Source of the DNA: an uncultured Gemmatimonadota bacterium
GTDB lineage: Bacteria > Gemmatimonadota > Gemmatimonadetes > Gemmatimonadales > GWC2-71-9
Direction of reading: 5' to 3'
Length of the DNA: 7,515 bases
Assembly (NCBI GenBank): GCA_946479805.1
Contig: CAMLHP010000099.1
Location: 1-7,515, forward strand
The notes below the pieces were generated by a model, which saw only the letters and a list, made by a program, of their open reading frames with translations, was not told where the DNA came from and did no database searches. Made by a program: the position numbers and the translations under genes. Below are positions 1-7,515 of the stretch, piece by piece (within the stretch, counting starts at the first letter, position 1; every line of letters starts with the position of its first letter).

Positions 1-53
1 CGCTCGGGCTACCGCTCGCACCAGCAACGCCTTCGGGAGGCGCGGCACGCCCG

Positions 54-171
54 CCGGCTGCCGTTGACCGGCTGCCGTTGGCCGGCTGTCATTGGCCCGC
101 TGTCGCTGGCCCGCTGACCGCAGGTCCCGCTGGCCGAAGGCACCGCTGGCCGGAGGCCCCGCTGCGCGAAG
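54..171. repeat. Degenerate heptamer-based tandem repeat
   Basis: Seen directly: alternating 7-base blocks CCGGCTG and CCGTTGG form a 14-base unit. It is cleanest at 54-116 (54, 68, 82, 96 and 110 begin CCGGCTG/CCCGCTG blocks) and decays to looser CCGCTGG-CCGAAGG type copies up to about 171. It starts about 20 bases beyond the stop codon of the minus-strand symporter gene, so it lies in the 3' flank of that gene. I see no convincing gene or terminator in bases 1-190. Function is unknown; copy number could vary by slippage. Confidence 0.7.
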
Positions 172-190
172 CGCCCGCTTTCTTTCCCGT

Positions 191-1669
191 TCACGCCGTT
201 GCGGTTCCCGCTCGCATGCGCGAGGCGATGAGACCGGTTGCCACTGCGATGATGGTCCCCAGTGGCACGTACCAGGGCCACGCCAACTGGCCGATGGGCT
301 CCAGCCAGGCGATGCCGGCGGCGTCCGCGATCCGCCTGGCGAACACCACTATCAGCATCACTGCCACCGTCACCAGGACGGCAGCGACGGCATGAGGGCC
401 GCGCACCGAGGCAAACTTGCCGGCAAGGATGTACGTGCCCAGGAGCGCACCGTATGTGATGGAAGCAATGGAAAGCGCCAGCACCACGACCGGAGTGTCG
501 GTGCCACTGGCGTAATAGTAGAAGAAGAGCGCCGCGCCGATCAGGCTGAGGCCCCACACAAGCGAGAACACCCGGCCCACCCTGAGCAGGTGCTGCGGGT
601 CGCGCCGGCCGGTCCATCCGGCGTAGAGATCGTGCGTAAGCGATGAGGCCAGCGCGTTGATTGATGAAGCGATGGTGCTCATTGCCGCTGCGAGAATGCC
701 CGCCACAACCAGCCCCGCGAGCCCTGAGGGTAGATAGTCAATGATGAATCGGGGAAAGACTTCATCGCCCGCGAGCGACTCGGGAGCCTGGCCCGCGGCC
801 CAGATGGCGCTTCCCACGAGGAGGAACAGCAGGAACTGGAGGATCACAACCACGCCCGAACCCACCAGCGCTCGCCGCGCATCACGGAGGGATCGGGTGG
901 CCAGCAGGCGCTGCACGATGAGGTGGTCTGTGCCGTGCGACGCCGCCGAGAGGAGCGCGCCGCCCAGCACCCCGCCAATGAGGGTGTACGTAGACGTGAG
1001 GTTGATGCTGAAGTCCACCATTCGGAGCTTGCCCGCCTCAGCCGCGAGCGAGAGCGCGGTGCCTGCGCCACCCGCCATCTTCCATGCTATCAGCAGCGCG
1101 GCCACGCCACCCGCGACGTATACCACCAGTTGCACGACGTCGGCCCAAACCACGGCCTTGAGGCCGCCCAGGTAGGTGTAGGCGAGGGTCACGAGCCCCA
1201 TGGCGAGGATCGCGACGGGGATGCTCCAGCCGGTCACCAGCGCCAGCGGAATCGCCCCGGCGAAGATCCGCACCCCATCACCCATGAAGCGGGTAACCAG
1301 GAAGACCAGTGAAACCAGGCGTCGGGTGCCCGGCCCGAACCGGCTTTCGAGCCGCTCGTACGCCGTTTCCTGGGAACCCTGGAAGTACCCCGGCAATAGC
1401 CACGCGGCCACTCCAATCCGTCCCAGCAGGTAGCCGAACGAAAGCTGGAGGAATGTGAGGTCGCCCCGGGCGCCGATGCCCGGGACCGAAATCACGGTCA
1501 GCGCGGACGTCTCGGTCGCCACGATCGACAACAGCACCGCAAAGGCGGGCAGGTCGCGAGCACCCAGGAAGTAGTCGCCCGCCGTGGCCTGCCGCCGAGC
1601 AAGCCAGAGCCCGACGCCCAGCGTGCTGGCGAAGTAGACGATGATGACGGCGAGATCGAGTCCGGACAT
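191..1669 (-). CDS. Sodium:solute symporter (SSS family), inner-membrane transporter
   Basis: A 492-residue polytopic membrane protein, full length for the SSS (SLC5-like) family, which couples Na+ influx to uptake of sugars, amino acids or vitamins. Many hydrophobic segments run from residue 5 to the C-terminus. Family landmarks are the YTYLGGLKAVVWADVVQ stretch (about 164-180), the SHGTDHLIVQRLLA loop (244-257) and the helix with MSTIASSINALASSLTHDLY (330-349). The S331/S335/S336 cluster of that helix matches the serine-rich Na+-site helix of known SSS proteins. The ATG at 1669 gives a natural N-terminus, but no good Shine-Dalgarno sequence precedes it. It is last in the minus-strand gene row, separated from the Fe-S carrier by a terminator, so it may have its own promoter or depend on read-through. 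Substrate cannot be read from sequence. Lying beside peptidoglycan-degrading enzymes, it is a candidate for importing MurNAc, GlcNAc or a muropeptide (inference). Confidence 0.93.
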   Translation of the reverse strand: MSGLDLAVIIVYFASTLGVGLWLARRQATAGDYFLGARDLPAFAVLLSIVATETSALTVISVPGIGARGDLTFLQLSFGYLLGRIGVAAWLLPGYFQGSQETAYERLESRFGPGTRRLVSLVFLVTRFMGDGVRIFAGAIPLALVTGWSIPVAILAMGLVTLAYTYLGGLKAVVWADVVQLVVYVAGGVAALLIAWKMAGGAGTALSLAAEAGKLRMVDFSINLTSTYTLIGGVLGGALLSAASHGTDHLIVQRLLATRSLRDARRALVGSGVVVILQFLLFLLVGSAIWAAGQAPESLAGDEVFPRFIIDYLPSGLAGLVVAGILAAAMSTIASSINALASSLTHDLYAGWTGRRDPQHLLRVGRVFSLVWGLSLIGAALFFYYYASGTDTPVVVLALSIASITYGALLGTYILAGKFASVRGPHAVAAVLVTVAVMLIVVFARRIADAAGIAWLEPIGQLAWPWYVPLGTIIAVATGLIASRMRAGTATA

Positions 1670-1697
1670 ATACCGGCCGAGTGGGAGGGGTCAGTTC

Positions 1698-1733
1698 TGC
1701 AAATGAAGAAGGGGCCGGATTACCAGCCCCTTC
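1698..1733 (-). terminator. Rho-independent terminator after the Fe-S carrier gene
   Basis: Arms at 1726-1733 and 1708-1715 form a perfect 8-bp stem (GAAGGGGC with GCCCCTTC) around a 10-base loop. Read on the minus strand, the stem is followed by CTTCATTTGC, a modest T-rich tail. It lies about 40 bases past the erpA stop and about 40 bases before the symporter ATG, so it should end or reduce transcription between these two genes. Confidence 0.7.
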
Positions 1734-1742
1734 AGCCTCGTG

Positions 1743-1770
1743 CCCTACGCCTCACGCCTCACGCCCCACG
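1743..1770. repeat. Heptamer tandem repeat (CCTCACG)
   Basis: Four consecutive 7-base units, CCCTACG, CCTCACG, CCTCACG and CCCCACG, end just before the stop codon of the minus-strand Fe-S carrier gene at 1772-1774. They lie between that gene and its terminator hairpin. The pattern resembles short tandemly repeated heptamers found between genes in some bacterial genomes. No function is evident. Confidence 0.7.
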
Positions 1771-1771
1771 C

Positions 1772-2137
1772 CTATGCAGTAAAGCTGCTCCCGCAGCCGC
1801 AGCCGCCGGTGGCATTCGGGTTGTTGAACGTGAATCCCGAGCCCTGCATCGAGGAGACGTAGTCGATGCCGATGCCGTTGAGGTACTGGGCGCTGAATCC
1901 ATCCACGAAGAGCCGGACCCCGTTGATCGACATGACCATGTCGTCCTCGGCCGGCTGCTCCTCGATGTTGAGGCTGTACTTGAATCCCGAGCACCCGCCC
2001 GGCAGCACGCTGACCCGGAGGCCGGATGTCTCGGCCGGTACCTGCTCCGACTCGAAGAATTTCCGGACTTCGTCTGCCGCGCGATCGCTCAGGCTGAGCG
2101 CAAAGCCTTGGGTCATGGTGTCCTGGGTGCCGCTCAT
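1772..2137 (-). CDS. erpA: A-type iron-sulfur cluster carrier (ErpA/IscA/HesB family)
   Basis: A 121-residue cytosolic protein of the A-type carrier family, which binds an Fe-S cluster and passes it to apo-enzymes. The three cluster-ligand cysteines are present: C49 in LPGGCSGFKY, and C113 and C115 in GGCGCGSSF. The C49-C113 spacing of 64 equals that of E. coli IscA (C35, C99, C101). The FSAQYLNGIGIDYV and GSGFTFNNPNA segments are also typical, and the NPNA...CGCGSSF ending is closer to ErpA than to IscA as I recall them. I chose the ATG at 2135-2137 because GGAG sits 6 bases upstream. A TTG at 2165-2167 would add 10 residues but has no Shine-Dalgarno sequence. The gene follows the serine hydrolase after a 58-base gap and is followed by a heptamer repeat and terminator. 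It is probably a housekeeping gene with no direct link to peptidoglycan salvage. ErpA versus SufA/IscA cannot be settled here. Confidence 0.95.
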   Translation of the reverse strand: MSGTQDTMTQGFALSLSDRAADEVRKFFESEQVPAETSGLRVSVLPGGCSGFKYSLNIEEQPAEDDMVMSINGVRLFVDGFSAQYLNGIGIDYVSSMQGSGFTFNNPNATGGCGCGSSFTA

Positions 2138-2143
2138 TCTCTG

Positions 2144-2147
2144 CTCC
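2144..2147 (-). promoter_or_regulatory. Shine-Dalgarno sequence deciding the Fe-S carrier start
   Basis: On the minus strand GGAG is followed by six bases (CAGAGA) and then ATG at 2137. This favours the ATG over the in-frame upstream TTG at 2167, which is preceded by CTTTCC and has no such motif. Confidence 0.65.
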
Positions 2148-2195
2148 GAAGTGTGGGTGGTGCTCAAGGAAAGCTAGATAGCGCCTCGTTGATGG

Positions 2196-3386
2196 TCAAC
2201 GCGCGGGCCCGTCGGAAGGTTCCACGCGGTCGCCCTCCAGTGCTGCCACCACCCGATTGGCCACGTTTCGCCGGACAGGCCCCCAGCCGGAGTTCTCCCG
2301 GGTGGGGTGAACCCGGTTGCTCAGCAGGACGATGACCAGGTCGCGGCTCGGGTCCATCCAGATCGATGTGCCCGTGAAGCCGGTGTGCCCGAAGCTGTGG
2401 CGCGATAGCCGCCGACCCGCGCTGCTCCCCTCCGACGGCGTGTCCCAGCCCAGCGCTCGGCTCGAACCCCTTGGCAGGTCCTGGCGACGGGAGAATCCCT
2501 TGAGCGCAGTCGGCGGAGGAGGCCAGATCCACTCCTCTCCCGGCTCGCCGTGCCAGGCCTCCAGCATCCAGTCGCCAAATCGAAGCAAGTCGCGGGCCGA
2601 GCTGAACAGCCCGGCGTGGCCCGACACGCCGCCCATCCGGCTGGCATTCTCATCATGCACCTCGCCCCGGACAATTCGCCCCCGCCAGGGGTCGTTCTCG
2701 GTCGGCGCGATCCGCGGCAGCCAGCTCGAATCAGGGAGGAAGCGTGTGTCACGAAGGCCGAGCGGCCCGAAGACTCTTCGCTCCAGCAGGTGGTCCAGCC
2801 GGGTGCCGTAAACGGACTCGACTACCTGGGTCAGCACGATCGCGCCCAGGTCGGAGTAGGTGAAGTCGGTGCCGGGAAGGGTATCGAGCTGGGTGGTATC
2901 GGCCATCAGCATCGCATCGGCACGATCGGTGGCGTACTCGTACAGCGGCCGCCACGCCGGCATTCCGGAGGAGTGGGTCAGCAACTGCCGGATCGTGATT
3001 GCGGACTTGCCCGGGCCGGCAAATGCAGGCACGTACCTGCTGGCCGGCGCGTCGAGGTCTATCAGCCCTTCCTCCACGCCCATCGCCACCGCGGTAGTGA
3101 GGCCAATGACCTTGGTGAGCGAGGCCAGGTCGTAGACCGTGGTGGAGTCGGGCCGGCTGGAATCGTCGATTCCCAGAACCCCATAGGCGTGGAAGTAGTG
3201 CTTCCCGCGCCAACTCACGCCCAGCACCGCGCCAGGAGCCGCACCGGAATCGATCATCGAGTCCAGGTACGGCACCGCGACATCGATGGGCGATCGAAGC
3301 GGTGGCACATCCCCGGGACGGGGTCCGGCGCATGCTACGGCTCCCAGAAGAAGCAGCAGCATCACCGCGCTCGGGGCAGTCCGCAT
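2196..3386 (-). CDS. amiE: Lipoprotein serine hydrolase, class C beta-lactamase fold; probable AmiE-like MurNAc-L-Ala amidase
   Basis: A 396-residue serine hydrolase of the beta-lactamase/penicillin-binding fold. The catalytic motifs are S89-L-T-K92 (SxxK), Y177-S-D179 (YxN position) and H334-T-G336 (KTG position). HDENASRMGGVSGHAGLFS (about 244-262) and HTGFTGTSIWMDP (334-346) are typical of the relatives that accompany or are fused to NagZ. Residues 1-18 form a signal peptide ending in LGAVAC, making C19 a likely lipid-anchored cysteine. In B. subtilis the relative AmiE removes the stem peptide from MurNAc before NagZ acts; the same role is inferred here. The stop of nagZ and this start overlap as TGATG, with GGAGGAG 7 bases upstream of the ATG. 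A GTG directly before it (3387-3389) would add one residue and is equally possible. Alternatives are a D,D-carboxypeptidase or an esterase of the same fold. Confidence 0.87.
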   Translation of the reverse strand: MRTAPSAVMLLLLLGAVACAGPRPGDVPPLRSPIDVAVPYLDSMIDSGAAPGAVLGVSWRGKHYFHAYGVLGIDDSSRPDSTTVYDLASLTKVIGLTTAVAMGVEEGLIDLDAPASRYVPAFAGPGKSAITIRQLLTHSSGMPAWRPLYEYATDRADAMLMADTTQLDTLPGTDFTYSDLGAIVLTQVVESVYGTRLDHLLERRVFGPLGLRDTRFLPDSSWLPRIAPTENDPWRGRIVRGEVHDENASRMGGVSGHAGLFSSARDLLRFGDWMLEAWHGEPGEEWIWPPPPTALKGFSRRQDLPRGSSRALGWDTPSEGSSAGRRLSRHSFGHTGFTGTSIWMDPSRDLVIVLLSNRVHPTRENSGWGPVRRNVANRVVAALEGDRVEPSDGPAR

Positions 3387-5116
3387 CACTGATCTCCTCC
3401 GGCTGCATCGCGAGTCAGGCCGGCGCCGAGTGGCAGCCGGGGCGGCACTGAGGTGGGTAGGCGCCCGACGATAGCTGCGCCCGAGAGCGCGTACGCGGCC
3501 GCGCGTTCACTGATCGGATTGGCAGACCAGGCAATCAGGTACGAACCAATCGAGGGCGTGGCCGAGTAGATGTAGGGCGATCCGAAGGACACCAGCATCG
3601 ACGGCCTCGCCGCCGCGCTTGAATCGATCAGCGCCGCCAGTGGCCCGGGCAGCGCTATCGAACCTTTCCACGCCACCGGGCGCACGGCCACGGCGAAAAG
3701 GGCGTACGGGTGATTGGCGACTTCGGTTCGAACCGAGTCGTAGCTGGCGGGGCCGCTCTGGGAAGTGAGCCGCAGCGATGTGACGCTGTGGCCTTCGGCG
3801 CGAAGTGCCGAGGCGAAGGTGGCACCCACCGAAGAAGCGGTTCCCTCACCGTACTGCACCAGCGCGATGTCCCGGGGTGCGGCCCTCAGCGAGTCGGCAG
3901 TGCCGTCATCCTCCGCCAGCACTATGGAGCGCGCGGCGATTTCTTCCGCCGCCAGCGCGTTCTCCTGGCGGCCGACGTGATCCATGACGCTGTCAAGCGG
4001 CACCAGCCGCTTTCGGAAGAGGCCAAGGTCGCGCTTGACGGCAAGCATCTTCCGTACCGAGTGGTTGACGCGCTCCTCGGTGACGCGGCCTTCTCCCACG
4101 GCAGTGACGACGGCATCGATCGCCTCGCCTGCGTTGGAGGGCATCAGCAGCAGGTCCGCGCCCGCCAGCAGCGCGAGGACTGCTGCTTCGCCCGCGCCGT
4201 ACAGGCTCACCACGCCCTGCATGTTCAGCGCGTCGGTTACGGTCAGTCCCCCGAAACCCAGCGAGTCGCGCAGAATTCCCGTCAGCACCCCGGGGACGAC
4301 CGTCGCGGGACGGGTGCGGCCTTCGTCCAGCTGGGGCAGCGCGATGTGGGCCGACATGACTGCGCTGGCACCGGCGTCAATTCCTGCCCGGAATGGCTCC
4401 AGTTCGAGCGAATCGAGCCGGCTCCAGTCGGCGTCGATCACGGGAAGGGCGAGATGGCTGTCGGTTTCGGTGTCACCATGACCGGGAAAGTGCTTGATGG
4501 TGGAAAGCATGCCGCCTTCCTCGATCCCCCGCACCGCGGCAGCGGTGAAGCGGGCCACGACTTCCGGGTCCTCCGAGAACGACCGGGTATTGATGATGGG
4601 ATTGGCGGGGTTGTTGTTGACGTCCGCCGCCGGCGCGAAGGCCATGTGGACTCCAACGGCCCGGCCTTCCTCTGCTGTCACCCGTCCGATGAGCCGGGCA
4701 TCGGATTCGCGCCCGCCCGCGGCCACTCCCATATTCGGCGGGAACTGGGTGCCGCCTTCGAGCCGGATGCTGGTTCCGCTCTCGAAATCGGATGCGATGA
4801 GGAGGGGCAGGGGTGCGGCGCGCTGATACTCGTTGATCCGCGCAGCGATGTCGGTGGGAGACCCCACCGAGATTATGATGCCGCCCACATGGAGCGAGTC
4901 TACCCAGCGGAGTTCCTTCTGGAACGCCGGCGCGTCGGTCGCGGTGTAACTTCCGGGGACCCAGGGCATGATGAGCTGAGCGACCCGGTCGCGCAGCGAC
5001 AGCGAATCGAGAAGCGCGTCCACGCCCATGGTGATGGGACGCGGGTTTGTCTCGGGCACATGCGCCGCGCAGGCGCTGAGGCCCGCCACTGCTCCAGCCA
5101 GGAGTAATCGATGCAA
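3386..5116 (-). CDS. nagZ: Lipoprotein beta-N-acetylglucosaminidase NagZ (GH3)
   Basis: A 576-residue two-domain GH3 enzyme, the long form seen in B. subtilis rather than the short single-domain E. coli form. The N-terminal TIM barrel (about 35-370) has the NagZ signature KHFPGHGDTETDSH (208-221). D219 and H221 supply the Asp-His general acid/base dyad, and D295 in TVTDALNMQG is the expected nucleophile. D110 and R118 lie in the usual substrate-binding segment. The GH3 C-terminal domain spans about 395-560. It should cleave GlcNAc-beta-1,4-MurNAc from the non-reducing end. Residues 1-15 are a short signal peptide ending in LSAC, with C16 as lipid anchor. The start is TTG at 5114-5116: an in-frame TGA lies at 5168-5170 and no other ATG, GTG or TTG lies between. 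The next Met (M30, 5029) would lose the signal peptide. No clear Shine-Dalgarno precedes the TTG. The coding region overlaps the divergent namZ start by 6 bases and is coupled to the hydrolase downstream. Confidence 0.93.
   Translation of the reverse strand: MHRLLLAGAVAGLSACAAHVPETNPRPITMGVDALLDSLSLRDRVAQLIMPWVPGSYTATDAPAFQKELRWVDSLHVGGIIISVGSPTDIAARINEYQRAAPLPLLIASDFESGTSIRLEGGTQFPPNMGVAAGGRESDARLIGRVTAEEGRAVGVHMAFAPAADVNNNPANPIINTRSFSEDPEVVARFTAAAVRGIEEGGMLSTIKHFPGHGDTETDSHLALPVIDADWSRLDSLELEPFRAGIDAGASAVMSAHIALPQLDEGRTRPATVVPGVLTGILRDSLGFGGLTVTDALNMQGVVSLYGAGEAAVLALLAGADLLLMPSNAGEAIDAVVTAVGEGRVTEERVNHSVRKMLAVKRDLGLFRKRLVPLDSVMDHVGRQENALAAEEIAARSIVLAEDDGTADSLRAAPRDIALVQYGEGTASSVGATFASALRAEGHSVTSLRLTSQSGPASYDSVRTEVANHPYALFAVAVRPVAWKGSIALPGPLAALIDSSAAARPSMLVSFGSPYIYSATPSIGSYLIAWSANPISERAAAYALSGAAIVGRLPTSVPPRLPLGAGLTRDAAGGDQ
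3394..3400 (-). promoter_or_regulatory. Strong Shine-Dalgarno inside the nagZ 3' end, for the serine hydrolase
   Basis: GGAGGAG lies within the last codons of nagZ, followed by ATCA, then GTG and ATG. With the TGATG stop-start overlap it indicates translational coupling of the hydrolase to nagZ. Spacing suits the ATG at 3386 slightly better than the adjacent GTG. Confidence 0.75.
5101..5104 (+). promoter_or_regulatory. Shine-Dalgarno of namZ
   Basis: GGAG (AGGAG if base 5100 is included) precedes the ATG at 5111 by six bases. This supports that ATG as the start. The site itself lies antisense within the first codons of nagZ. Confidence 0.75.
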
Positions 5117-7515
5117 CGGTGGCTCGCGAGGTTGAGTGGGTTGACGGCGGCGCTGCTGCTGACGGTGTCAGCCGGCTGCGCCGCACAGGGTGCCAGGCAA
5201 TCTCCAGCCCCGGCAGGAGTCCGGCCCGGCATAGAGGTGCTGCTGGCCGACAGTGCGCACCTCATCTCGGGGCGAAACGTCGGGCTGGTCACCAACCACA
5301 CCGGCATCGGGGCCGACGGCATCAGCGACGTCGAAAAGCTGCTGGCGGCCGGCGTCGCGCTCAAGGCGCTCTACAGCCCGGAACATGGCTTCCGCGGGGC
5401 GGCCGCGCCCGGTGAGCATGTGGCAACCACCACCGATAGCGCCACCGGGCTTCCAATCTACAGCCTCTATGGCAGCACCGCGGCTCCGACCGACTCCATG
5501 CTGGCCGGGATCGACGTGATGCTGGTGGACCTGCAGGACGTCGGCGCCCGCTACTACACCTACATCTCCACCGCGCTCGAGGTGATGAAGTCGGCCCGGC
5601 GAAAGGGGATCCCGGTCCTCATTCTGGACCGGCCCAATCCGATAGCCGGCCTGGTACAGGGGAATGTGCTCGACACTGCATTTTCGACCTTTGTCGGCAA
5701 GCTTCCGGTGCCGATGCGGCATGGTCTCACCATGGGGGAGCTGGCGCGATTCGGCAACGTCGAACTCGGTATTGGCGCAGACCTGCACGTGATTCCGGTG
5801 GTGGGATGGGAACGAATCCGGTATTTCGACCAGACGGGCCTGCCGTTCGTTCCACCCAGCCCTAATCTCAAGACCGTCGAAAGCCTGGTCCATTACCCCG
5901 GCACCTGCCTGTTCGAGGGCACCAACCTCTCGGTGGGGCGGGGGACCGATGCGCCCTTCGAGCAGATCGGGGCGCCCTGGCTCGACAGCGACGACGTGCT
6001 CAAGCGGCTCGACCCGTCTGCCCGGGCCGGTGTGGTGTTCGAGCCTGTGAGCTTCACTCCGGTGTCGCCCGGTGACGGGAAGTTTACTGGAGTACGGGTG
6101 GAAGGGATCAGGCTGCGAGTCACCGATCGCGCTCTCTACGACCCGACTCGCACCGCGGTTGCGCTTGTCTCCGCCATCGCCGCTTCGGCGCCGGAGCAGT
6201 TCGAGTTCCTCGAGCGGCACTTCGACCGGCTTGCGGGCACCGACAAGCTCCGCGCCGGAATCACAGCTGGTCAGAGCGTGGAGCAGCTGGTTGCCAGCTG
6301 GAGTCGCCAGCGCGAGGTTTTCCGGGCCCGCATCGAGCCATTCCTCATTTACCCCGCGGCCGGTGGCGCGGAAGGCGCGGAGGTTTCAGCGGCGGATTCC
6401 GCGCTCATTGGCCAGATTCTCCTGGCCGAAGACGGAAGGGACCTTGCCGCACCCGCCATTGCGAAGGGTCGGACCCACGCTGATCCACGCATTCGGCGTC
6501 TCGCCTTGCGGGCAGCAGCTCGCATCCAGGATCCCGCATTCGAGGCGCGCGGCGAGCTGTCGCCGATCGCCCCGCCCCCGGTGTGGCCGGAACCGGCGTG
6601 GCGGCTGCGCTATCGCGAACTGGCTCAGCATCGCACCGACTGCGCCTCGCTGCAGCGGGCCATGGAGGACCCGTCGTGGCAGGTTCGGTTGCGCGCCGCG
6701 GACGTCGCGGATTCGTCGTGCGGCCAGCGCGCCGGACTGGTCGCGATTCTGCAGCAGTGGGTGGACCACATACCGGGCGACGCCACCCGTCGCGAGGCCA
6801 GCGGCGTATCGTGGCATGCGGGAGCCCACGCACTTGTGGCTCTCGCCCGGCTCAGGCCCGATATCGCAGGCCGGCGGACATCGCGGCTCGCGCGGCACCA
6901 CCAGTGGCAGGTGCGGATGTACGCCGCGCGTGCGGCCGCGGTAGTGCCTGACCTGGCCACGCTCCGAACACTGGCCCGCGACCCTGACGACAACGTGAAG
7001 GAGGCGGCCATACTGGCACTCTCCCAACTCACAGGTCACGTCGACGACCCGATATACCTCTCTGCCCTTCAGGGGAGTGGCGCGCAGGCGGTCCGCGCAG
7101 CGGCGATCGCCATCGAAGGCAGCTCCAGTGTCGAGGCGCGACTGGCAGCCTCGGCCATGTTCGACCGGTGGGCGGCCCGTGGAAATGCATCCGAGCGCGA
7201 CGTGCGGGTGGCACTCCTCGCGGCGGCCGGCCGACCCGCGACCGATGACCGGCCGCCACTGGTGCAACCCAGCCTCTCCCCGCGCACCGTCGGCCTGGCC
7301 CTGGGTGAGGAAGTCCGGCTCCGGGTGGAGATGTCGCCCGCCAGTGGCGGTGGCACCTTCGTAGTGCGGCTCAGGGGTGACGCCGCTCCTGTCATGGCGG
7401 GACGCATCCTCGACCTCGCCAATCGAGGCTACTACGACGGACTCACCTGGCACAGGGTGGAGCCGGACTTCGTGATCCAGGGCGGCAGTCCGGGAGACAA
7501 CGAGTACGTCGGGCT
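5111..7515 (+). CDS. namZ: NamZ (DUF1343/GH171) exo-beta-N-acetylmuramidase fused to HEAT-like repeats and a cyclophilin PPIase; 3' end outside window
   Basis: One open frame of 801 codons with no stop, running off the window. Residues 1-23 are a lipoprotein signal (SAGC, C23). Residues about 35-414 form a complete NamZ: SPEHGFRG (89-96, with E91 a candidate catalytic residue), LYG (119-121), DLQDVGARYYTY (140-151), DRPNPI (173-178), RHGLTMGELA (203-212), and a YPGTCLFEGTN...GRGT...APW block (262-290). It ends with the family's usual FLIY at 411-414. NamZ enzymes release MurNAc from the non-reducing end. After an Ala/Gly-rich linker (415-430) come HEAT-like helices (about 430-700; for example DPRIRRLALRAAARI at 458-472, WQVRLRAADVAD at 523-534, WQVRMYAARAAA at 599-610, DDNVKEAAILAL at 626-637). 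A cyclophilin domain begins near 735, with GYYDGLTWHRVEPDFVIQGG (773-792), including the catalytic-type R782 and Q790. No ATG, GTG or TTG occurs in frame between codons 390 and 466, so separate translation of the rear part is unlikely. Confidence 0.9.
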   Translation, partial: MQRWLARLSGLTAALLLTVSAGCAAQGARQSPAPAGVRPGIEVLLADSAHLISGRNVGLVTNHTGIGADGISDVEKLLAAGVALKALYSPEHGFRGAAAPGEHVATTTDSATGLPIYSLYGSTAAPTDSMLAGIDVMLVDLQDVGARYYTYISTALEVMKSARRKGIPVLILDRPNPIAGLVQGNVLDTAFSTFVGKLPVPMRHGLTMGELARFGNVELGIGADLHVIPVVGWERIRYFDQTGLPFVPPSPNLKTVESLVHYPGTCLFEGTNLSVGRGTDAPFEQIGAPWLDSDDVLKRLDPSARAGVVFEPVSFTPVSPGDGKFTGVRVEGIRLRVTDRALYDPTRTAVALVSAIAASAPEQFEFLERHFDRLAGTDKLRAGITAGQSVEQLVASWSRQREVFRARIEPFLIYPAAGGAEGAEVSAADSALIGQILLAEDGRDLAAPAIAKGRTHADPRIRRLALRAAARIQDPAFEARGELSPIAPPPVWPEPAWRLRYRELAQHRTDCASLQRAMEDPSWQVRLRAADVADSSCGQRAGLVAILQQWVDHIPGDATRREASGVSWHAGAHALVALARLRPDIAGRRTSRLARHHQWQVRMYAARAAAVVPDLATLRTLARDPDDNVKEAAILALSQLTGHVDDPIYLSALQGSGAQAVRAAAIAIEGSSSVEARLAASAMFDRWAARGNASERDVRVALLAAAGRPATDDRPPLVQPSLSPRTVGLALGEEVRLRVEMSPASGGGTFVVRLRGDAAPVMAGRILDLANRGYYDGLTWHRVEPDFVIQGGSPGDNEYVG

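Follow-up and report, generated by a model that had tools for sequence, protein, structure and literature searches.

A stretch of 7,515 nucleotides from an uncultured Gemmatimonadota bacterium of the order Gemmatimonadales (GenBank assembly GCA_946479805.1, contig CAMLHP010000099.1, positions 1 to 7,515; hereafter the window) carries on its forward strand a gene (5111..7515) in which a member of the wall-recycling glycosidase family NamZ is joined, through a HEAT-like alpha solenoid, to a predicted prolyl isomerase of the cyclophilin type in one protein. This fusion architecture is real, conserved and inherited. It is a new combination of known parts and not a new kind of protein, and we found no description of a NamZ with a prolyl isomerase in the literature searched, which left the founding NamZ papers aside.

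The fusion protein and its homologues

The frame has no stop from the ATG at 5111 to the end of the window (801 codons), where the gene runs off. A preliminary description of this DNA, made from the letters alone, had proposed one continuous frame from NamZ, ending at FLIY (residue 414), through helical repeats to the front of a cyclophilin, and both the open reading frame and the Pfam domains agree with it. The full length of 877 aa is given by the database protein P0002, which differs from the window at only one of 801 residues (612) and supplies the remaining part of the cyclophilin, so that the Pro_isomerase domain, truncated in the window (745-796, 45.7 bits), is whole there (745-869, 110.3 bits). 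Residues 360-500, used as a protein query, matched 91 proteins, seven of them (P0002-P0008, 877-890 aa, P0002 being the window's own protein cluster) with the order NamZ-HEAT-cyclophilin. The six further clusters, homologous across the joint, have 57-69% identity there. The remaining 84 were 83 cyclophilin proteins of 465-631 aa, most of them listed with a HEAT domain, and one of 1060 aa (P0075). The HEAT-cyclophilin module is commoner free in this search (83/91), and the aligned free forms have a signal-like start by eye, as expected from the earlier statement that it is usually a separate exported protein.

An independent contig from a metagenome-assembled genome (L001, JAICQR010000057.1, Gemmatimonadales) also bears the fusion, although it stops inside the solenoid, and has the same neighbours as the window at 82-92% identity: a sodium:solute symporter (SSF), ErpA, and AmiE-like and NagZ-like proteins. 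The fusions beyond the window and L001 are known as proteins, not as DNA. Since six further clusters and L001 cross the joint, the fusion is not an assembly slip, and the alignment of the six clusters over the joint excludes chance. The closest relatives lack a stop after FLIY, so that a stop followed by a separate start and signal, the pattern that had been named as telling against a single protein, did not occur; the next relatives beyond the fusions do stop after NamZ, but no isomerase gene follows. The protein of L001 (6001-8058) is itself a mosaic that resembles P0008 as far as about residue 280 and P0006 thereafter, either by recombination or by chimeric assembly, with the switch away from the joint. 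Automatic annotation already shows the fusion: P0004 is labelled with the names of both parts, P0005 with that of NamZ.

In-frame ATG, GTG or TTG codons within codons 371-500 are found only at 390, 466 and 491, so that the reported absence of any between 390 and 466 is exact, and the hydrophobic stretch of the free forms is missing from the fusion (by eye), as the reported lack of a second signal implied. An internal restart was discarded, as the window and L001 have no start codon position in common around the joint.

The NamZ half is complete, with NamZ_N (PF07075) at residues 57-256 (5279..5878; 254.9 bits against a Pfam cut-off of 26.9) and NamZ_C (PF20732) at residues 261-414 (5891..6352; 161.2 bits against 25), the latter finishing at FLIY. 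Residues E91 (5381-5383) and E210 (5738-5740) align with both solved DUF1343 structures, 4k05 and 4jja, and we take these glutamates, of the EHG and GELA motifs, to be the catalytic residues of NamZ. We predict that this half is an exo-muramidase releasing N-acetylmuramic acid (MurNAc), the NamZ exo-beta-N-acetylmuramidase being presumably family GH171. A variable linker, delimited by the alignment of fusions and the structure model, follows at residues 415-426 (6353..6388). It is rich in Ala, Gly and Pro, has a predicted local distance difference test (pLDDT) score below 50 at 418-421 in the structure model, and shows no conserved motif by eye among the aligned proteins; mean identity over residues 415-428 is 34% among seven fusions. 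The HEAT-like solenoid covers about residues 427-705 (6389..7225), a helical region larger than the Pfam HEAT_2 call (591-666), and consists of tandem helix pairs. It was modelled and fold-searched alone because the fold matches listed for the full-length model were taken up by NamZ and cyclophilin. The front half of the cyclophilin (residues 735-801, 7313..7513) includes R782, F787 and Q790, which together with F835 of the complete protein align with 1j2a and are invariant in 12/12 aligned proteins. We take them to be the catalytic R55, F60, Q63 and F113 of human CypA, and this half is a predicted prolyl isomerase. Among the fusions the cyclophilin is conserved at 90.4% and the solenoid at 79.2%, and the ratio of nonsynonymous to synonymous substitution rates (dN/dS, NG86) indicates purifying selection on NamZ and solenoid over the parts covered by L001.

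The gene starts six bases after a likely ribosome-binding site, AGGAG (5100..5104, by eye); a promoter scan of 5000-5300 gave no match. A signal peptide, putatively of the lipoprotein type, was recognised by eye (5111..5179), and the protein is probably exported. The lipoprotein identity claimed beforehand is plausible, not proven: the Cys23 that supports it is present in 7/7 database fusions, but the -3 residue (S, S, S, P, S, A, S) is atypical.

Origin of the fusion

Two trees were inferred from selected rows by 'quick' tree searches, with support only from the Shimodaira-Hasegawa-like approximate likelihood ratio test (SH-aLRT), one for NamZ (73 rows) and one for the module (76 rows). The eight fusion rows of the NamZ tree formed one starred branch, adjoining the stand-alone NamZ of locus L002, and the seven fusion rows of the module tree also formed one starred branch. 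A single starred branch in the tree of each half is most simply explained by one joining event, and the fusion seems to have arisen once. Locus L002 has the same SSF-ErpA-AmiE-NagZ neighbourhood and 5 kb downstream of NamZ without an isomerase; this stand-alone NamZ and those of the outer relatives suggest that NamZ was single before the joining. In a search of 288 genomes of the order, with three candidates scored per genome, a match across both parts was found, among the matches listed, only in G001, which is the genome of L001.

The preliminary description had left the choice between a dedicated architecture and two adjacent genes fused by loss of a stop. That the architecture is a real fused one is supported; fusion of neighbours by loss of a stop is not, and is unlikely. 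We examined 80 NamZ loci; in the 67 with at least 1.5 kb downstream (L001 aside), which span several phyla and include eight of the ten nearest relatives L002-L011, no HEAT-cyclophilin gene followed NamZ within 3 kb or up to the end of the locus. Stand-alone NamZ relatives have their stop just after FLIY. Five apparent run-on matches of the 288-genome search (G073, G075, G065, G255 and G050) turned out to be chance extensions past a stop, located in 5/5 cases 0-6 codons after the terminal LIY or LLY with no module behind. Conversely, only 1/51 module-matching loci had an adjacent NamZ, that of the fusion-bearing genome, many of these loci spanning only about 1.5 kb per side. Since no module lies downstream of the other NamZ genes examined, it was probably imported from elsewhere and not read through from a neighbour. 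No donor appeared in the loci and genomes searched. Among 101 genomes sampled from the family, matches across the solenoid at 55% identity or more were listed for just three, G001, G080 and G081, and many others had more distant HEAT-cyclophilins or cyclophilin-only matches. No second match of at least 55% across the solenoid was listed for G001, a genome whose completeness is not stated.

Neighbouring genes and proposed role

The other genes discussed here are on the reverse strand. A NagZ-like GH3 protein (PF00933; 3386..5116), putatively exported by eye, is followed by a beta-lactamase-family serine hydrolase (PF00144; 2196..3389), named AmiE-like from its family and neighbourhood, AmiE being presumably a member of PF00144. 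Then come an IscA/ErpA-type iron-sulphur protein (1772-2167), amid what is otherwise a probable wall-salvage neighbourhood, and the SSF symporter (191..1669), part of the conserved neighbourhood. The GH3 and PF00144 neighbours are conserved in L001, L002, L004 and L009 among others. We take ybbC of Bacillus subtilis to be NamZ. In that organism amiE, nagZ and ybbC are kept together, and muropeptides that have been released are broken down extracellularly by AmiE and NagZ (PMC5061867). By analogy the window cluster is probably a muropeptide-salvage cluster; no murQ, murR or murP was found among the five window proteins scanned. The NamZ start (ATG CAA, forward) and the NagZ-like start (TTG CAT, reverse) overlap head to head by six bases (5111-5116), with zero intergenic space, and the overlap recurs in L001 (6001) and in L002 (5327, where the NagZ start is GTG). 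An IscA/ErpA-type gene lies near NamZ in 7/11 of the loci L001-L011 (L001-L005, L008 and L009).

To a role in salvage with a local foldase we give about an even chance: the fusion would be a two-enzyme protein on one anchor, its halves like beads on a string, that stations a foldase where salvage takes place. Anchoring would probably be by lipid. This reading builds on one frame, a single branch in each tree, two conserved halves that both keep the presumed catalytic residues, and the variable linker. From their families, NamZ would release MurNAc from wall fragments at their non-reducing ends, the NagZ-like GH3 enzyme would clip N-acetylglucosamine (GlcNAc) and the AmiE-like enzyme would take off peptides, the three steps together feeding muropeptide salvage. 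The tethered solenoid may hold unfolded client segments near the anchor while the cyclophilin, acting locally, isomerises their prolyl bonds; the clients could be NamZ itself or envelope neighbours. The weakest step is the assumption that the covalent link as such is important; an advantage is hinted at by the module's joining to several other enzymes.

Several observations weigh against this role. The recurrence of fusions could be due to nothing more than a promiscuous module, and the module is more often free. The other 287 of the 288 genomes of the order, whose completeness is not stated, lacked the fusion among the matches listed, at three candidates per genome, so NamZ mostly works without the module. 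The predicted template modelling score (pTM) of the full-length model, 0.61, and its low-confidence linker give no sign of a fixed contact between NamZ and isomerase. In the dN/dS comparison, which covers NamZ and solenoid, dS was high (0.9-1.7), and L001 is a mosaic ending within the solenoid. Finally, the names NagZ-like and AmiE-like come from family and neighbourhood, both proteins staying below the NCBIfam equivalog cut-offs: the NagZ-like one scores 158.9 bits to the NagZ model PRK05337 (cut-off 207), and the PF00144 protein matches PBP4B best (131.4 bits, cut-off 385).

The variable linker and the model without fixed contact would suit a passive association, in which HEAT-cyclophilin only borrows the export signal and anchor of NamZ, the two doing unrelated jobs, and in which a joining without benefit persists because a free gene is missing from the lineage. 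The single solenoid match of G001 noted above fits this too, and we consider it possible, if less probable than the salvage role. Against it, the module has been joined to several other enzymes, mostly on different branches, hinting at some advantage, and with solenoid matches of at least 55% listed for only three of the 101 genomes the loss of a free gene is not established. HEAT solenoids commonly serve as protein-binding scaffolds, and this one is well predicted and conserved, so it could instead bind an envelope partner or a wall-bound protein and position NamZ there, the isomerase being secondary. We regard such docking as quite unlikely, because conservation is higher in the cyclophilin, which keeps its presumed catalytic residues, than in the solenoid, and the same solenoid is found with unrelated enzymes. 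Cleavage after export that would yield two mature envelope proteins of the ordinary kind, which the Ala/Gly/Pro-rich, poorly predicted linker might allow, is very improbable, as the linker has no visible conserved motif and one frame is not needed for that outcome. An artefact, be it a frameshift, a chimeric contig or an overlooked stop, for which the L001 mosaic is a reminder that chimeras may occur in such data, is rejected on the seven database clusters (the window's own included) and L001 that cross the joint, the parallel divergence of the two halves across those clusters, the position of the L001 switch, and P0002, which is listed on a 3,892-base contig and repeats the frame.

Other fusions of NamZ and of the HEAT-cyclophilin module

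Close to the fusion stand the known NamZ proteins (formerly DUF1343/YbbC; B. subtilis NamZ, Tannerella forsythia NamZ1 and NamZ2, and the solved relatives 4k05 and 4jja), with which it has in common both complete NamZ domains and, for the solved ones, E91 and E210. It shares nagZ- and amiE-like neighbours with B. subtilis ybbC (PMC5061867). It differs by about 460 extra C-terminal residues, the solenoid and cyclophilin, and by being divergent from the nagZ-like gene. The view of NamZ as stand-alone, held in the preliminary description, was too strong and is corrected by the fusion. In a search for long NamZ (482-1535 aa, best 120 of 7997 candidates), PF00144 was present in 60 of the 120, which is not a family-wide rate as the length gate excludes ordinary NamZ; P0095, counted in the 60, has only a weak PF00144 overlap with Beta-lactamase2, and others carry SSF or PF13354. 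A DUF1343-S12 protein was already tabulated in 2008 (PMC2605481), and a Rhodothermus marinus GH3 N-acetylglucosaminidase also has a beta-lactamase domain (PMC6987092). Like the window's protein, the NamZ-PF00144 proteins are NamZ enzymes fused to a second domain, but their partner is probably a second enzyme from the pathway of NamZ, whereas the window's is a folding enzyme. P0093 (902 residues) is a tandem NamZ in which NamZ_N and NamZ_C each occur twice. In P0133 and P0167 an SSF sodium symporter precedes NamZ in one protein, possibly an importer-hydrolase unit, and SSF is also encoded in the window's cluster.

The free HEAT-cyclophilins of Gemmatimonadota (about 475 aa; for example P0009, P0010 and P0019) have the same domain order as the module of the fusion, and five aligned ones have a whole-row identity to P0002 of 59-65%. 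They have their own hydrophobic signal-like N-terminus (by eye), which NamZ replaces in the fusion. Among the best 120 of 7996 candidates in a search for long proteins with the module, 20 have a further non-repeat Pfam domain, NamZ in seven of them; P0243 (PF12717) and P0285 (PF23227) were not counted, as these may be repeat domains. The other partners include FKBP-esterase, FKBP, penicillin amidase, beta-lactamase-like, alpha/beta hydrolase, 3-keto-disaccharide hydrolase, SnoaL-like and DUF305, as well as a kinase, there with a more distant solenoid. A partner domain was seen in 9/10 proteins scanned, ahead of the module in seven and behind it in two (P0224 and P0228). P0075, P0206 and P0207 (FKBP-esterase-HEAT-cyclophilin) and P0233 (penicillin amidase-HEAT-cyclophilin) resemble the fusion in having the same module C-terminal to another hydrolase, and differ by the enzyme and by their place in the module tree.

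This repeated use of the module adds to the interest of the fusion, which together with the others can serve as a test case for cis action of envelope foldases. It is tempting, if rather doubtful, to see in HEAT-cyclophilin a portable cis-foldase of Gemmatimonadota, recruited repeatedly by exported hydrolases (NamZ, FKBP-esterase, penicillin amidase, beta-lactamase-like and alpha/beta hydrolase) that would each carry their own chaperone into the envelope. Joined modules were seen in P0075, P0206, P0207, P0208, P0209, P0212, P0223, P0224, P0228, P0229, P0233 and P0240. P0212, which also has a DNA polymerase IV-type frame at its front, could be an error of gene calling or assembly, and in P0301 a more distant form of the module is joined to another domain.
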